64,000 nt of DNA from Oscillospiraceae bacterium (GTDB lineage Bacteria > Bacillota > Clostridia > Oscillospirales > Oscillospiraceae). Positions within the stretch are counted from its first letter, which is position 1. Every line of letters begins with the position of its first letter. Under the pieces are notes generated by a model. That model ran no database searches, was not told where the DNA came from, and saw nothing but the letters and a program-made list of their open reading frames with translations. Both the position numbers and the translations under genes were made by a program. The DNA lies in assembly GCA_910574635.1 (NCBI GenBank), contig CAJTCG010000004.1:62001-126000 (forward strand). Direction: 5' to 3'. This document shows positions 58,435 through 64,000 of this stretch, piece after piece.

Positions 58435-58588
58435 GAGCAGTTCCTAGAAAAAATGAGAAAAAGGAAGCGAGGGCAGGGAGCGCAGGGCAAGGCGGAGGAC
58501 GCAGGCGGGCTGACGCCCGTCAAGGACGGCAACGCGCCCCTGCGATTCCTGGACCACTGAACGTTTCTCGTGATTTTTGGATGCTGCC
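58435..58588. other. Non-coding segment with GC-rich inverted repeat, possible insertion boundary
   Basis: No coding frame was recognised. It holds a GC-rich palindromic stretch (CGGGCTGACGCCCG at 58496-58509) between the clostripain-like remnant and the transposase remnant. A short element such as a MITE is possible but no terminal repeats were found. Confidence 0.35.
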
Positions 58589-59059
58589 CTAATTAGAGTC
58601 TGCTGAAAAACATGGGATTGTGTAGACGCGGAAGATAGAACGGAAAAAGAGCGCAAGCCAACGAACCAGCCGGATGCCGAGCTGGGTACAGAACATTTTA
58701 TTGCGGCGGGTCCGGTAGATCCTGTCTGCCAGAACGGCGCTGGGATAGCAGCCAAACTTCCGAAAATAATCTTCCACAGCGGCTTCAAGGTCACCGTCTT
58801 CGTTGAAATTGCTCCAGCTGGTCTGCTCCAAATAGGTGTATCTATTCACCACGGAAAGGTGCATCTTCTGCCCGAATTCGGCGGGGTTTGGACGTTTGCC
58901 CCGCTGGAACGGACACATGTGGGACTGCTCCAGACTAACGATCCGGATATCCTTGACATGTCCCTCCGCGGCCTTGGAGCCGATTCCATGCTCCGCGACG
59001 ACCCGATCTGCCCAGTCCCGCAGAACAGAGTCGGCGCAGCGGCAGATTCTTGAGGCGGA
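58589..59059 (-). pseudogene. Degraded IS5/IS1182-type transposase fragment
   Basis: Minus-strand frame without a start, about 155 codons. The stretch DIRIVSLEQSHMCPFQRGKRPNPAEFGQKMHLSVVNRYTYLEQTSW, then YFRKFGCYPSAVLADRIYRTRRNKMFCTQLGIRL, matches the central part of DDE transposases of the IS5/IS1182 group, where the usual forms are RGK...EFGAK and ILADKIYR...GIRL. It breaks off after GIRL, before the final GRPKK-type motif and catalytic Glu, and the N terminus is missing, so it is inactive. No terminal inverted repeats are visible. Confidence 0.65.
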
Positions 59060-59593: not shown

Positions 59594-61648
59594 ATGCGCA
59601 TCCAACACAATATTATGGCAATGAATGCCTACCGCAACTACAACACCAACACCTCCGCCCTGGCGAAGAACCTGGAAAAGCTCTCCTCCGGCTACAAGAT
59701 CAACCGCGCCGGTGACGACGCCGCCGGTCTGGCTATTTCCGAGAAGATGCGGGCCCAGATCACCGGCCTGAACGCCGCCCAGAAAAACGTCAAGGACGGC
59801 ATCTCCCTGGTGAAGACCGCCGAGGGCGCCATGCAGGAAGTCCAGGACATGCTCAACCGTATGGAGTACCTGGCCACCCAGTCCGCCAACGGCACCTATG
59901 ACAACGAAGTCGACCGGGCCAACCTCCAGAAGGAAGTTACCGCCCTGAAATCCGAAATCAACCGTATCGCCGACTCTGCCAACTTCAACGGCATCAAGCT
60001 GCTGGACGGCTCCCTGTCCAACGGCACCTCCGGCGTTTCCAACGGCGCTCCCCTGGATATGGTCGCCGTGAACAACTCCGACAGCGTCTCCAGCGCCTCC
60101 AAGGACGGCCAGCGCCCCAACGCGGCCACCGGCGCGGAGTTCGTGGTCACCGTCGGAAGCGCGGGCACTCTGGCTGGCCTGGGTTCTAAGACCCTCACCG
60201 GCACCGCGCTGGGCACCGGTACGGTCAGCGATCTCTTTGACGCCTTCGACGAGGACGGCAACCAGATCGACCTGACGGATTCTACTGCGATTGCCTCCGG
60301 CGACACCGTGACCGTCACCCTGGTGGCGAAGCAGCAGGGCGCGCTTGGTAATACTGCTGTTGGCTCTCTCACGACCGCCCTTGAAGGCGTCACGGGAGTT
60401 GGCACCGGCAAGGTGGCGGCGACCGACGGCACGGACATCGGAAGCGATACCGCTGGCGGAACCCGCGCTGTTTACAAGGTGAACTTCAAGGATCTGTCCG
60501 CGCTCCAGGGCGGCGAAAAGTTCACCATCGGCAACAAGACCTTCCAGTTCACGATGGATGGGACCGCAGCCGCCCCTGCTGGCGTGGATAAGATGATCGA
60601 CATCTCCAGGCTTGATCTGAAAAACGGAACCAATGATGCGTATAAGAAGCTGAAGGAGAAAATTCTGGACGCTGTTGAGGATGCTGGTGTTGGCCTTGTG
60701 GGCACTGGCGCCGGGAAGTTCTCCCTCAGCAGCAAAAACAGCGGCTCCAACAACCCGGACGACTTCACGCTGACGATTACCTCCAACGACAAGGGCCTCG
60801 CCGCCAACGGCTTCAAGGATCCCCAGCACGACCAGAACAGCCTGGCGTTCGATGTGGACTTCAAGCCCGCCGAGGTCTATGCCAACACCGGCGTGGGCCG
60901 TCACGCGCAGGCCGTCTATGATCTGGGCGACATCGGAGTGGGCGACAAGATCACCATCGGCGGAAAAACCATCGAGCTCATCGACAAACACGACGAAAAC
61001 GCCCAGAAGGCCGACGCGGAAGTGGCCAGCGGCAAGCTGACCCTCAAGGAGTTCAAGGACAAGGATATGCTGAACAAGGCTCTCCAGTCCATGGGCTACA
61101 AGGAAGGCCGCGTGGAAGTCAAGGGCTCCAAGATCTTCGTCCAGAAGTCCGAAGCCGACGACACCACCGCCGCCGCCTGGTCCAAGGGCCTGGGCAAGGT
61201 CACCCTGGAGAAGGGCTCCGGCACCGACGGCTCCGCCGCGGGCGAGGACAACGGCCTGACCCTGCAGATCGGCGACACCGCCGACTCCTTCAACCAGCTG
61301 AATGTTGCCATCGGTGATATGCACACCAAGGCCCTGGGAATCGACGCCCTGAACATCAGCAACATCGAAGGAGCTCAGGGAGCCATCCAGACCATCAAGG
61401 ACGCCATCAACAACGTCTCCTCCGTCCGTGGTGACCTGGGCGCCATCCAGAACCGTCTGGAGCACACCCAGAACAACCTGAGCGTCATGGCCGAGAACAT
61501 CCAGGACGCCGAGTCCACGATCCGGGATACCGACGTGGCCGAGGAAATGATGAAGTACACCAAGAACAACATCCTGATCCAGTCCGCTCAGGCGATGCTG
61601 GCCCAGGCCAACGCTGTTCCCCAGGGCGTGCTCCAGCTGCTGGGCTAA
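59594..61648 (+). CDS. Flagellin
   Basis: 684 residues. Conserved N-terminal D0/D1 (about 1-140: MRIQHNIMAMNAYRNYN, LSSGYKINRAGDDAAGLAISEKMR, GISLVKTAEGAMQEVQDMLNRM) and C-terminal D1/D0 (about 590-684: GAIQNRLEHTQNNLSVMAENIQDAESTIRDTDVAEEMMKYTKNNIL, ending VLQLLG) are intact. The middle 450 residues form an enlarged variable D2/D3 domain rich in Thr, Ser, Gly and Asp. It is exported by the flagellar type III system and polymerises into the filament. The genes behind it suggest post-translational modification. One complete gene; no other flagellar genes are in the window. Confidence 0.95.
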   Translation: MRIQHNIMAMNAYRNYNTNTSALAKNLEKLSSGYKINRAGDDAAGLAISEKMRAQITGLNAAQKNVKDGISLVKTAEGAMQEVQDMLNRMEYLATQSANGTYDNEVDRANLQKEVTALKSEINRIADSANFNGIKLLDGSLSNGTSGVSNGAPLDMVAVNNSDSVSSASKDGQRPNAATGAEFVVTVGSAGTLAGLGSKTLTGTALGTGTVSDLFDAFDEDGNQIDLTDSTAIASGDTVTVTLVAKQQGALGNTAVGSLTTALEGVTGVGTGKVAATDGTDIGSDTAGGTRAVYKVNFKDLSALQGGEKFTIGNKTFQFTMDGTAAAPAGVDKMIDISRLDLKNGTNDAYKKLKEKILDAVEDAGVGLVGTGAGKFSLSSKNSGSNNPDDFTLTITSNDKGLAANGFKDPQHDQNSLAFDVDFKPAEVYANTGVGRHAQAVYDLGDIGVGDKITIGGKTIELIDKHDENAQKADAEVASGKLTLKEFKDKDMLNKALQSMGYKEGRVEVKGSKIFVQKSEADDTTAAAWSKGLGKVTLEKGSGTDGSAAGEDNGLTLQIGDTADSFNQLNVAIGDMHTKALGIDALNISNIEGAQGAIQTIKDAINNVSSVRGDLGAIQNRLEHTQNNLSVMAENIQDAESTIRDTDVAEEMMKYTKNNILIQSAQAMLAQANAVPQGVLQLLG

Positions 61649-61690: not shown

Positions 61691-61720
61691 AAGGGGGCCG
61701 GGCGCTTTGCCCGGCCCCTT
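61691..61720 (+). terminator. Terminator after flagellin
   Basis: 12-bp GC-rich arms with GCTT-type loop, then TTTTCC, between flagellin and the sulfotransferase-like gene. Some readthrough could feed the downstream genes. Confidence 0.8.
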
Positions 61721-61742
61721 TTCCGAAGAAAGGACGGCTGAC

Positions 61743-63758
61743 ATGGACGTATTGGAGCTGGCCCGGCGGCTGGCGGGGCTGGGACAGACCCAGGAGGCCC
61801 AAAACGCATACGCACTCGCCATAGAGGGGGCGGACCCCGCCGGAAAACTGGAGGCGGCGGCCTATATCTTCCAATCCGGCGGCGATTACCGGATTTCCTA
61901 TACCTGCTTCCGGAACCTCTATAACGAGGGCCATTACCGGAAGGAAACCTTTGACATCATGACCCAGGCGTTTTACGAGCCCAACGTGAAGGCGCTGAAA
62001 AAACGCTATGAGAAAAACTGCAGGCTTCTGGCAAAATACCCCTATCTGTTCCGGAAGGATTTTCTGCCCTTCCAGGACCTTCCCATTCGCTTCTATCCCT
62101 ATGACGATAACGGCTATGTGCCGTTTTTTGCGGCAGAGGAGCGGTTTGGGGACTATGTGAATTTGAAATATCCCGCCGTCAGCCGGAACTTTTTCAAGGA
62201 TTTGGAAAAGCCTGTCCTGGCGGACGGCGTTACCTCCCAATATGAATTGGAATATTTGAATGACAACGTCCGGGACAGTGTGCGTGTCGGGCGTGAAAAC
62301 CATGTCTACCTGCATTACGGCGACTGGGGGACCTTCTGCGCCTATTTGCAGCTCTGGAACCTGCGCCCCCTGCTGGAGGAGAAAAAGCTGGTCTTCCTAA
62401 TAGGAGACGAGCTGGCGCTGTACCCCATCGACTTCAAGGCCCGCTTCGGCATAGATTACAGCCGGTACCAGCCCCAGCCGGTGGCGATCCGGGAGGTCAG
62501 CCGCCTGATTTGGCATACCCAGCTCTCCGCCCACAACGGCGGCGATTTCTTCAACGAGATCTTCGACGGACACCCGAATCTCTTGGCCCTGCCCTCCATT
62601 CTCTTCAACGAGGTCGAGGAAACGGTGGCCTCCATCCGGCGGCTGCTGAAGGAATCAAAGAGCGAGGCGGAGCTGCTGAGCGGCTGGAATCAGGGAGGCA
62701 GGAAGCGGATTTTAGAGCTGTACCGCATGGGGAACCCCACAGATAAGGACATCCTGGCGGGAATCTACCTGGCGAACAAGATCGCAAAATCCGGCCTGGA
62801 CCAGAGCGCCCGCATCGCCCCGGCGCTGTTCTTCCAGCCCCACTTTGAGGACATCGTCTACAAGCTGGAGGGGGCGGAAGACGGCCGGGTCAGCATCGGG
62901 GCGGAGGCGGCGAAGGAGCTGCGCCGCTGCCGCTTCCTGAAAGAGTTTCCCTATATCAAGACCTTCACGCCCATGCGCCGCATGACCACCAGCTACGGGG
63001 GCACGGTGCAGTATATGTACCAGATGTCCAAGCAGATGGAGGCGGCGGAAGCGGCGGACCCGAAGCGGAAGAAGACCGTGGTAGGGGACGAGATTTCGGA
63101 CCGGATTCTGAACCGGAGCTTCATGATAGACCCGGAGGAGCGGCTGTTTCAGGACAGCATCCTGGTCCGCTTTGAGGACGCGAAGCTGAATCCGAAGGCC
63201 ACGTTCACCGCCCTGGCCGCGTTTTTGGACCTGCCCTATACCCCCAGCATGACGGAGTGCACCCAGGGCGGGCAGCCCTTAAGCTACGGCGGCTATATCG
63301 CCGGAGGCTTTGACACGGCCCCGGTGTATAAGGCCTATGACGAGTTTGCGGGCGGCGCGGAACGATATTATATCGAGTATTTTATGCGGGATGCCTACGC
63401 CCGTTACGGCTATGACTTCCACTACTACGACGGCGCGCCCATGGACGAGGCCCGGGCCAAGGAGCTGATCGCCGGGTTCACCACCCTGAACGGCTACATC
63501 CGGGAGACCTGGAAGAAAGTGGCGGACTCGGCGGCTGTTCTCAAGAAAAACGGCGTGCCGGTCCCGCCGGAGGAAATGGAACAGGCCCGCCGGGAGCTGG
63601 TGGAAAAGCACATTCAGGAGCTGTCGGAAACACGGCTGAAAATCGCGAAGGTTTTGCTGCGGGATCCGCGGCTGGTGAACCAGGCGGGGCGGCCTCTGCG
63701 GTTCATGCCCATGCTGGAGCCGGACCCGGCGCTGCTGGAAGCGCCGCTCTATCATTGA
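61743..63758 (+). CDS. Large sulfotransferase-like protein, flagellin-linked
   Basis: 671 residues, ATG 61743 with AAAGGA upstream. Residues 1-75 are helical (LARRLAGLGQTQEAQNAYALAIEG). The middle part contains RFYPYDDNGYVPFFAAEERFGDYVNLKYP and HYGDWGTFCAYLQLWNLRPLLEEKK. Near residue 475 it has SILVRFEDAKLNPKATFTALAAFLDLPY, the pattern around the 3'-phosphate-binding site of PAPS sulfotransferases (RYEDL..P...L..F..FLGLP). The 5'-phosphosulfate loop (usually R/K-x-G-T/S) is not evident. With the APS kinase gene next, sulfation of flagellin or its glycan is inferred. Confidence 0.65.
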   Translation: MDVLELARRLAGLGQTQEAQNAYALAIEGADPAGKLEAAAYIFQSGGDYRISYTCFRNLYNEGHYRKETFDIMTQAFYEPNVKALKKRYEKNCRLLAKYPYLFRKDFLPFQDLPIRFYPYDDNGYVPFFAAEERFGDYVNLKYPAVSRNFFKDLEKPVLADGVTSQYELEYLNDNVRDSVRVGRENHVYLHYGDWGTFCAYLQLWNLRPLLEEKKLVFLIGDELALYPIDFKARFGIDYSRYQPQPVAIREVSRLIWHTQLSAHNGGDFFNEIFDGHPNLLALPSILFNEVEETVASIRRLLKESKSEAELLSGWNQGGRKRILELYRMGNPTDKDILAGIYLANKIAKSGLDQSARIAPALFFQPHFEDIVYKLEGAEDGRVSIGAEAAKELRRCRFLKEFPYIKTFTPMRRMTTSYGGTVQYMYQMSKQMEAAEAADPKRKKTVVGDEISDRILNRSFMIDPEERLFQDSILVRFEDAKLNPKATFTALAAFLDLPYTPSMTECTQGGQPLSYGGYIAGGFDTAPVYKAYDEFAGGAERYYIEYFMRDAYARYGYDFHYYDGAPMDEARAKELIAGFTTLNGYIRETWKKVADSAAVLKKNGVPVPPEEMEQARRELVEKHIQELSETRLKIAKVLLRDPRLVNQAGRPLRFMPMLEPDPALLEAPLYH

Positions 63759-63759
63759 G

Positions 63760-63828
63760 ATGGAAGAGCTGGAGCGGACAGCGGCCGCGCTGGAGGCGTT
63801 AGGGAAGGCCAAAGGGGAGGATACATAA
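63760..63828 (+). CDS. Very short frame (22 residues) before the APS kinase gene
   Basis: Starts ATG one base after the sulfotransferase-like stop and ends TAA two bases before the GTG of the next gene: EELERTAAALEALGKAKGEDT. No ribosome binding site of its own. Possibly translated by reinitiation or simply spacer; reported because it exactly fills the gap. Confidence 0.25.
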   Translation: MEELERTAAALEALGKAKGEDT

Positions 63829-63830
63829 GC

Positions 63831-64000
63831 GTGGAGAAAAAGGGAACGGTCTATTTTTTCACCGGCCTGGCCGGGGCGGGCAAGACCACCATCGGCGGGT
63901 TGTTTTATGAACGTCTGAAGGAAAAGAGCCCGGACGCCATTTTGATCGACGGAGATCAAACGCGTCTCGCGGCGGGCCACAGCACGGCGGCGGGCACGGT
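63831..64000 (+). CDS. cysC: Adenylylsulfate kinase, N-terminal part (3' end outside window)
   Basis: GTG start at 63831; GGGGAGG lies about 12 bases upstream. The 56 visible residues show FTGLAGAGKTTIGGLFYERLKE (P-loop) and ILIDGDQTRLAAG, matching APS kinases (GLSGAGKTT ... LDGDNIR). It phosphorylates adenylylsulfate to PAPS, the sulfate donor of sulfotransferases, which fits the gene before it. The lid and the sulfate site lie outside the window, so activity cannot be judged fully. Confidence 0.75.
   Translation, partial: MEKKGTVYFFTGLAGAGKTTIGGLFYERLKEKSPDAILIDGDQTRLAAGHSTAAGT

Follow-up and report, generated by a model that had tools for sequence, protein, structure and literature searches.

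The window analysed here is a stretch of 64,000 nucleotides from an Oscillospiraceae bacterium (contig CAJTCG010000004.1, positions 62,001 to 126,000; G000:C4:62001-126000 in our numbering), and the contig was read on beyond its right end. Close to that end, on the forward strand, lies a gene for a flagellin of 684 amino acids (59594..61648; Pfam Flagellin_N 145 bits, Flagellin_C 97.1 bits), followed by a gene for a sulfotransferase-fold protein of 671 amino acids (61743..63758, hereafter the transferase) and by one for a kinase of the adenosine 5'-phosphosulfate (APS) kinase family (178 amino acids; 63831..64000 within the window, then running on past its right end to the equivalent of 64367). 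The original prediction for this DNA, whose coordinates and motif were correct, held that the kinase makes 3'-phosphoadenosine 5'-phosphosulfate (PAPS) and that flagellin, or its O-glycan, is sulfated. Our analysis points to a different chemistry: with a probability of about 0.58, the locus transfers a cytidine diphosphate (CDP)-activated phosphate group, not sulfate, to flagellin or to the glycan of flagellin.

Beyond the kinase, the contig (L003:10377-13799) carries genes for a PHP protein, a ribulose-phosphate-epimerase-like protein, an IspD/TarI-like cytidylyltransferase and a zinc dehydrogenase, after which come, on the forward strand, a TylF-type methyltransferase gene and glycosyltransferase genes. 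The original prediction had proposed extending the contig in search of ATP sulfurylase and glycosyltransferase genes; the latter are present, and in place of ATP sulfurylase stands the IspD/TarI-like module. Open reading frames (ORFs) beyond the glycosyltransferases resemble, by eye, further sugar genes.

The AlphaFold model of the transferase (pLDDT 93) has a PAPS-sulfotransferase fold over residues about 246-668, preceded by N-terminal helices (residues ~1-133) which are weakly TPR-like. Structure prediction, which had been suggested as a check, therefore bears out the claim that a sulfotransferase-like protein lies directly after flagellin. The fold is common to TPST1/2 and other PAPS sulfotransferases, although identity to TPST chains is only 12–17% and the protein differs from PAPS sulfotransferases in its lack of a Pfam match, its loop and its extra N-terminal half. 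Pfam found 0 families at E<=10 in the whole protein and no sulfotransferase model when given its last 426 residues, where IBN_N (E 0.2) was the sole match, and the best match in a sequence search of the PDB had an E value of 0.56, with a CurM sulfotransferase among the matches at 0.83. PAPS sulfotransferases usually have a K/R-x-G-T/S-T loop (R/K-S-G-T-T); this canonical 5'-phosphosulfate-binding loop is absent from the window protein, which has H-N-G-G-D at that place (S-A-H-N-G-G-D-F-F-N-E-I-F-D-G-H-P-N).

The family of the neighbouring kinase was also confirmed, as it passes the Pfam APS_kinase gathering score (61 vs 21.1 bits). It further passes the cut-off of NCBIfam PRK05541, adenylyl-sulfate kinase (134.9 vs 127 bits), a name that is not decisive because the kinase of a locus with a phosphoramidate-like gene set (see below) fits the same model (174.1 bits), and it falls under the cut-off of the apsK equivalog TIGR00455 (65.4 vs 138.7 bits). 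When no more than 18 candidates per genome were scored in 200 genomes of the family, seven PF01583 matches lay between 60.4 and 102.1 bits, all of them adjoining transferase genes, and 17 lay between 176.9 and 228.5 bits, in other genomes; the remaining ones among the matches listed were below 27 bits.

For comparison we kept 80 of the 112 relatives found (L035-L114), which gave 81 loci with the window included. Loci from the 200 family genomes were not added to this count, since three of those genomes have contigs equal in length to those of L037, L049 and L084. A flagellin C-terminus on the same strand stands upstream of the transferase in all 66 loci with at least 500 bp of upstream sequence (median gap 123 bp), and is also visible in 7 of the 15 loci with less. 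The link to flagellin in the original prediction is supported and tight, and flagellin or its glycan is the presumed target of the transferase. The kinase is present in 72/74 loci, none being found in L085 and L113, and its start lies at most 250 bp from the transferase in 69/74. The unit conserved across loci consists of flagellin, transferase, kinase and often a PHP phosphatase. Transferase matches occurred in 12 of 394 genomes sampled evenly from the order (10 near full length, one of these with an internal stop, and two short stretches), in 8 of 200 genomes of the family (a short stretch only in G182) and in 1 of 391 genomes sampled from the class, namely the window's own.

The module beside this unit is exchanged among relatives. 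Donor classes were assigned with tblastn seeds, representatives being scanned against Pfam or NCBIfam, and because precedence was fixed, each locus bears one label even where modules of two kinds are present (L059 has both TagD-like and IspD-like genes). The 81 loci comprise 21 with an IspD/TarI-like cytidylyltransferase (window included), 15 with a kinase-methyltransferase fusion, 14 with a phosphonate module, six TagD-like, five with a phosphoramidate-like set, four with a MobA-type nucleotidyltransferase (NTP transferase; L113 among them), three with ATP sulfurylase (Sat), six others and seven that meet the contig end. Of the 57 loci whose downstream sequence extends for 5 kb or more, 43 were found to have an activating enzyme and 42 a cytidylyl- or nucleotidyltransferase; the 14 that lack an activating enzyme are L085 and 13 loci of the kinase-methyltransferase class. 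A quick maximum-likelihood tree of 80 transferases, weakly supported at many deep branches, requires no fewer than 24 changes of class (minimum 6; mean after shuffling 40.5; so few in 0/200 shuffles), so that the classes are clustered yet often exchanged. Within 6 kb downstream of 23 loci we found 23 kinases, 15 PHP genes and 15 activating enzymes, and within 8 kb upstream none (0/23), an upstream control that is biased because the seeds were taken from downstream genes. Several flagellin-transferase loci with differing donor modules were also seen within single genomes (the assemblies behind L042/L050/L051/L087, L056/L060/L066 and L069/L095/L112).

The 14 phosphonate loci encode phosphoenolpyruvate (PEP) mutase with a cytidylyltransferase-like domain, joined by a decarboxylase in 10 and by an aminoethylphosphonate (AEP) aminotransferase in seven (families scanned in L096 and L078). 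The five phosphoramidate-like loci have a PEP-utilising enzyme, a relative of gamma-glutamyl-CDP-amidate hydrolase and an NTP transferase beside the kinase, as scanned in L072 and found by tblastn in the other four. Their PEP-utilising enzyme matches NCBIfam PRK05849 ('hypothetical protein'; 944.5 vs 501 bits), which we take to be the glutamine-kinase family, and the hydrolase relative scores 111.2 bits, below the cut-off of 250. In the window's contig, a downstream stretch of 10 kb yielded neither glutamine-kinase- nor hydrolase-like genes. In L113 (L113:2281-5632), where no kinase was found, the downstream genes appear by eye to be a binding-protein ABC transporter and then an NTP transferase, so that the group is perhaps imported and not synthesised.

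In the class of kinase-methyltransferase fusions (L040, L042, L058, L060, L068, L082, L090, L093, L097, L098, L099, L105, L107, L110 and L114), the kinase is fused to an S-adenosylmethionine (SAM) methyltransferase (family scanned in L093) and PHP lies downstream in 11/15; the donor here is possibly a methyl phosphate. In Flavonifractor plautii (L093) the transferase, the fusion and PHP are followed by five scanned genes: a chemotaxis receptor, a FlgN-like protein (28.1 bits, below the cut-off of 30.5), an FlgK-type protein, Flagellin_C and DUF6470. As there is no glycosyltransferase among these five, a glycan cluster nearby may not be needed for the pair to act on the flagellum.

The kinases themselves divide according to whether Sat is present. 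Seven alignment columns were compared, with four readable of six CysC regions from the family as controls. The Pro of the ISP motif is found in 4/4 family CysC, 3/3 Sat-linked kinases and 3/3 archaeal solved kinases, and in 0/68 readable other kinases, 66 of which, including that of the window, have Met. The Asn of the ENI motif occurs in 4/4 family CysC, 3/3 Sat-linked kinases and 0/69 others, the window's among them. Pro is the better mark, because the archaeal solved kinases keep Pro and not Asn. The same split is followed by kinases sharing an assembly, namely those of L070 (Sat) and L086 (phosphonate), and those of L062 (Sat) and L068 (kinase-methyltransferase).

The solved chains nearest to the IspD-like protein downstream of the kinase are 2vsh, 4jis, 3f1c and 6xhp (100.6–89.4 bits), with IspD chains from 71.7 bits; two of the four, 4jis and 6xhp, bear the name ribitol-5-phosphate cytidylyltransferase, and 2vsh is presumably TarI. 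The genome has a separate IspD at G000:C8 (203.5 bits). The epimerase gene, the IspD-like gene and the dehydrogenase gene co-occur in 6/81 loci, window included. Our best guess for the donor is a CDP-pentitol, probably CDP-ribitol. The solved phosphoesterases nearest to the PHP protein are 3e0f and 2yb1, the latter being, we assume, a 3',5'-nucleotide bisphosphate phosphatase.

In the reaction scheme that we favour, a pentitol phosphate, likeliest ribitol-5-phosphate, would be supplied by the epimerase-like enzyme together with the zinc dehydrogenase, and the IspD/TarI-like enzyme, judging from its family, would convert this to CDP-pentitol. The APS-kinase-like enzyme, by homology with Campylobacter, would phosphorylate the 3'-OH of the cytidine ribose; the sulfotransferase-fold enzyme would bind this 3'-phosphonucleotide and move pentitol phosphate to flagellin or to its O-glycan; and the PHP phosphatase could take the 3'-phosphate off the spent 3',5'-nucleotide. 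The sequences show the fold, the gene order, the linkage, the exchange of modules and the split in kinase residues, and no ATP sulfurylase was found; from these we infer the donor, the reaction, the acceptor atom and the kinase's substrate. Transferase and kinase would thus be a flagellin-tailoring pair that applies the logic of PAPS to other groups. Because the activating module is exchanged among relatives, the group can be sulfate, phosphoramidate, phosphonate, glycerol-phosphate-like or pentitol phosphate.

The chances are about even that this belongs to a general system of 3'-phosphonucleotide tailoring, in which APS-kinase-like enzymes would 3'-phosphorylate CDP- or CMP-activated groups and sulfotransferase-fold enzymes would form phosphodiesters or phosphonoesters on flagellin, with sulfate used when an ATP sulfurylase module is present. 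The groups would include pentitol phosphate, glycerol-phosphate-like groups, aminoethylphosphonate and other phosphonates, phosphoramidate and, in the kinase-methyltransferase class, perhaps methyl phosphate, and the swapped cassettes would amount to a swappable flagellar coat in gut Oscillospirales.

Several observations weigh against the transfer of a CDP-activated group by the window locus. The IspD-like protein scores slightly higher with the ispD model (138.7 bits, cut-off 181.3) than with the ribitol model NF001183 (132.7 bits, cut-off 166), both below cut-off, so that the product may be a CDP-alcohol other than CDP-ribitol. The dehydrogenase is nearest to galactitol-1-phosphate dehydrogenase, and the 15 other IspD-class loci have different partners, for example a gene of the epimerase/dehydratase family. 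The PHP protein is below the cut-off of the NF041577 equivalog (161.5 vs 400 bits), which was its best model among the matches listed, and PHP is not in all loci (32 of the 54 with at least 6 kb downstream). The GGD of the transferase loop is identical in Sat-linked and most other classes. As for the kinases, just two of the seven columns, the Asn of ENI and the Pro of ISP, split Sat-linked from other kinases; the Asn, found in 0/3 archaeal solved kinases, is not universal in APS kinases; and at two further columns, the Phe of FTG and the Asp of LDT, the residues of Sat-linked kinases (Ile, Glu) are not those of CysC either. Finally, the module heads a glycan island with glycosyltransferases, and the CDP-pentitol might therefore serve the glycan.

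This last point leads to an alternative which we consider unlikely, although it survives best of those examined: the cytidylyltransferase module would serve the glycan island, with its glycosyltransferases and sugar genes, while the pair would use another, always available nucleotide donor. The kinase-methyltransferase class may do so, as no activating enzyme was found in any of its 13 loci with at least 5 kb downstream. Against such a donor, 43 of the 44 remaining loci of that length do have an activating enzyme, the exception, L085, also lacking the kinase, and several unrelated chemistries recur at the same place, one of them with a 3'-phospho-CDP product known in Campylobacter.

Sulfation of flagellin or its glycan with PAPS made by the kinase is, in the window's genome, improbable. 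The sulfotransferase fold, the APS_kinase family, the PRK05541 score and the presence of Sat in three related loci all favour it. Nevertheless, in this draft genome (97.76% complete) we did not find PF01747 ATP sulfurylase, and no CysD or CysN was over cut-off; for CysN, searched in this genome only, there were nine weaker matches, the best at 99.9 vs 336.1 bits. CysD was over cut-off in 0/51 genomes, the window's included, with weaker matches (19–36 bits) in 10. PF01747 was found in 3 of the 50 searched genomes of loci, and these are the ones which carry Sat inside the locus (L055, L062 and L070, 3 of 80 relatives; in the genome of L062 the match comes as two pieces). Single absences from draft genomes are weak evidence; the overall pattern of missing sulfate supply is not. 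With no APS source found, a kinase that scores under the apsK cut-off and is missing the Pro shared by canonical and Sat-linked kinases, and an IspD/TarI-like module among the genes that follow, sulfate is unsupported in the window's genome, and we rejected plain sulfation there. A frame of 590 amino acids with PAPS_reduct was considered as a sign of sulfate metabolism and set aside, as its best NCBIfam models are the hypothetical PRK13795 ones, with cysH lower and all below cut-off. In L055, L062 and L070, to judge from their genes, sulfation is likely. Among openly licensed papers, searched by titles and the starts of abstracts, we found no description of flagellin sulfation, nor of a sulfotransferase/APS-kinase pair with cytidylyltransferases.

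A role for the transferase domain without catalysis, as a scaffold or as a chaperone of flagellin, is very improbable, since its loop and the R412/R413 region are invariant or nearly so over 54 sequences, the kinase accompanies it in nearly all loci, and GGD is altered in the phosphoramidate class alone (4/4 readable sequences vs 0/74 readable ones from all other classes, the Sat-linked among them), as expected of a substrate-contacting site.

The closest parallel to transfer of a CDP-activated group is the methyl-phosphoramidate (MeOPN) pathway of Campylobacter jejuni, in which Cj1415 is, we assume, an APS-kinase-family homologue. Enzymes Cj1415-Cj1418 make CDP-phosphoramidate 3'-phosphate, according to PMC11800397, which also cites a reference titled Cytidine Diphosphoramidate Kinase. 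The likeness lies in five relatives whose kinase has neighbours resembling glutamine kinase, amidate hydrolase and NTP transferase. In C. jejuni the acceptor is the capsule and the transferases are Cj1421/Cj1422 (PMC3907429), whereas the loci described here are linked to flagellin, have a sulfotransferase-fold transferase and show many other donor modules; this comparison with Cj1415 and Cj1421/Cj1422 is by description, not by sequence. With CDP-ribitol synthesis by TarI/TarJ for teichoic acid, the window shares an IspD-family enzyme near ribitol-type solved chains and a zinc dehydrogenase, and differs in the score below the ribitol cut-off, the galactitol-1-phosphate-like dehydrogenase and the flagellin link. 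Nucleotidyl activation of phosphonates is known from PntC, which makes CMP-AEP (PMC6697681). PEP mutase and a cytidylyltransferase-like domain are common to that tailoring pathway and our 14 relatives, which have in addition a kinase and a partner of sulfotransferase fold; PMC6697681 does not contain the words sulfotransferase, adenylylsulfate or flagell. The type A flagellin glycan of Clostridioides difficile is made by a gene set different from these loci. It nevertheless provides a likeness in the form of a phosphodiester flagellin modification in Clostridia, with linkage to N-methylthreonine (PMC8861647).

A search of plasmids for the PEP-utilising enzyme returned 14 records, of which four were examined, with incomplete gene tables. 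On Azospirillum lipoferum plasmid AZO_p6 a protein of 846 amino acids (L122:8632-11172) has APS_kinase at residues 658-801, within a phosphoramidate-type cluster of methyltransferase, PEP-utilising, gamma-glutamyl hydrolase and cytidylyltransferase genes; three genes on lies a Sulfotransfer_1 protein (32.4 bits). The N-terminus of the 846-residue protein looks sulfotransferase-like by eye (Pfam E 0.22). Deltaproteobacterium Smac51 has a kinase and a methyltransferase, with no sulfotransferase annotated, and both its kinase and that of Azospirillum read ISMF where CysC has ISPF. In the Vibrio and Roseovarius plasmids neither kinase nor sulfotransferase is annotated nearby, and cysN and cysD adjoin the Vibrio set; the association is therefore not universal. 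Since a profile of the window's transferase had no match to the Azospirillum proteins, the Azospirillum likeness supports the logic, not a shared origin of the transferases.

Between the flagellin stop and the transferase, a GC hairpin read by eye on the forward strand (61694..61722; 10-bp stem, loop GCTTT, then TTTT) is likely a terminator or attenuator, and hints that the modifying enzymes are expressed by read-through at a low level. Comparable hairpins were found by script at this place in 61/70 loci. The window's own was not listed by the terminator scan and was missed by the script as well, we believe because extension through G-T and A-T pairs consumed the T run. Upstream of flagellin, short ORFs on the reverse strand (58444-58918) look by eye like the remnant of an insertion-sequence transposase. 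Just past the glycan island, four large reverse-strand ORFs (L004:7531-14325) resemble serine recombinases by eye and are perhaps a mobile-element boundary.

If the transfer of CDP-activated groups is correct, the sulfotransferase fold and the idea behind PAPS, a 3'-phosphate as the handle of the donor, would extend to phosphate and phosphonate transfer, and one conserved enzyme pair would serve several chemistries. It would explain the role of an APS-kinase homologue in genomes in which no APS source was found, and would connect phosphoramidate synthesis in Campylobacter with a transferase fold. It would also predict several flagellin modifications not yet seen in bacteria of the gut, where flagellin acts as an immune signal.

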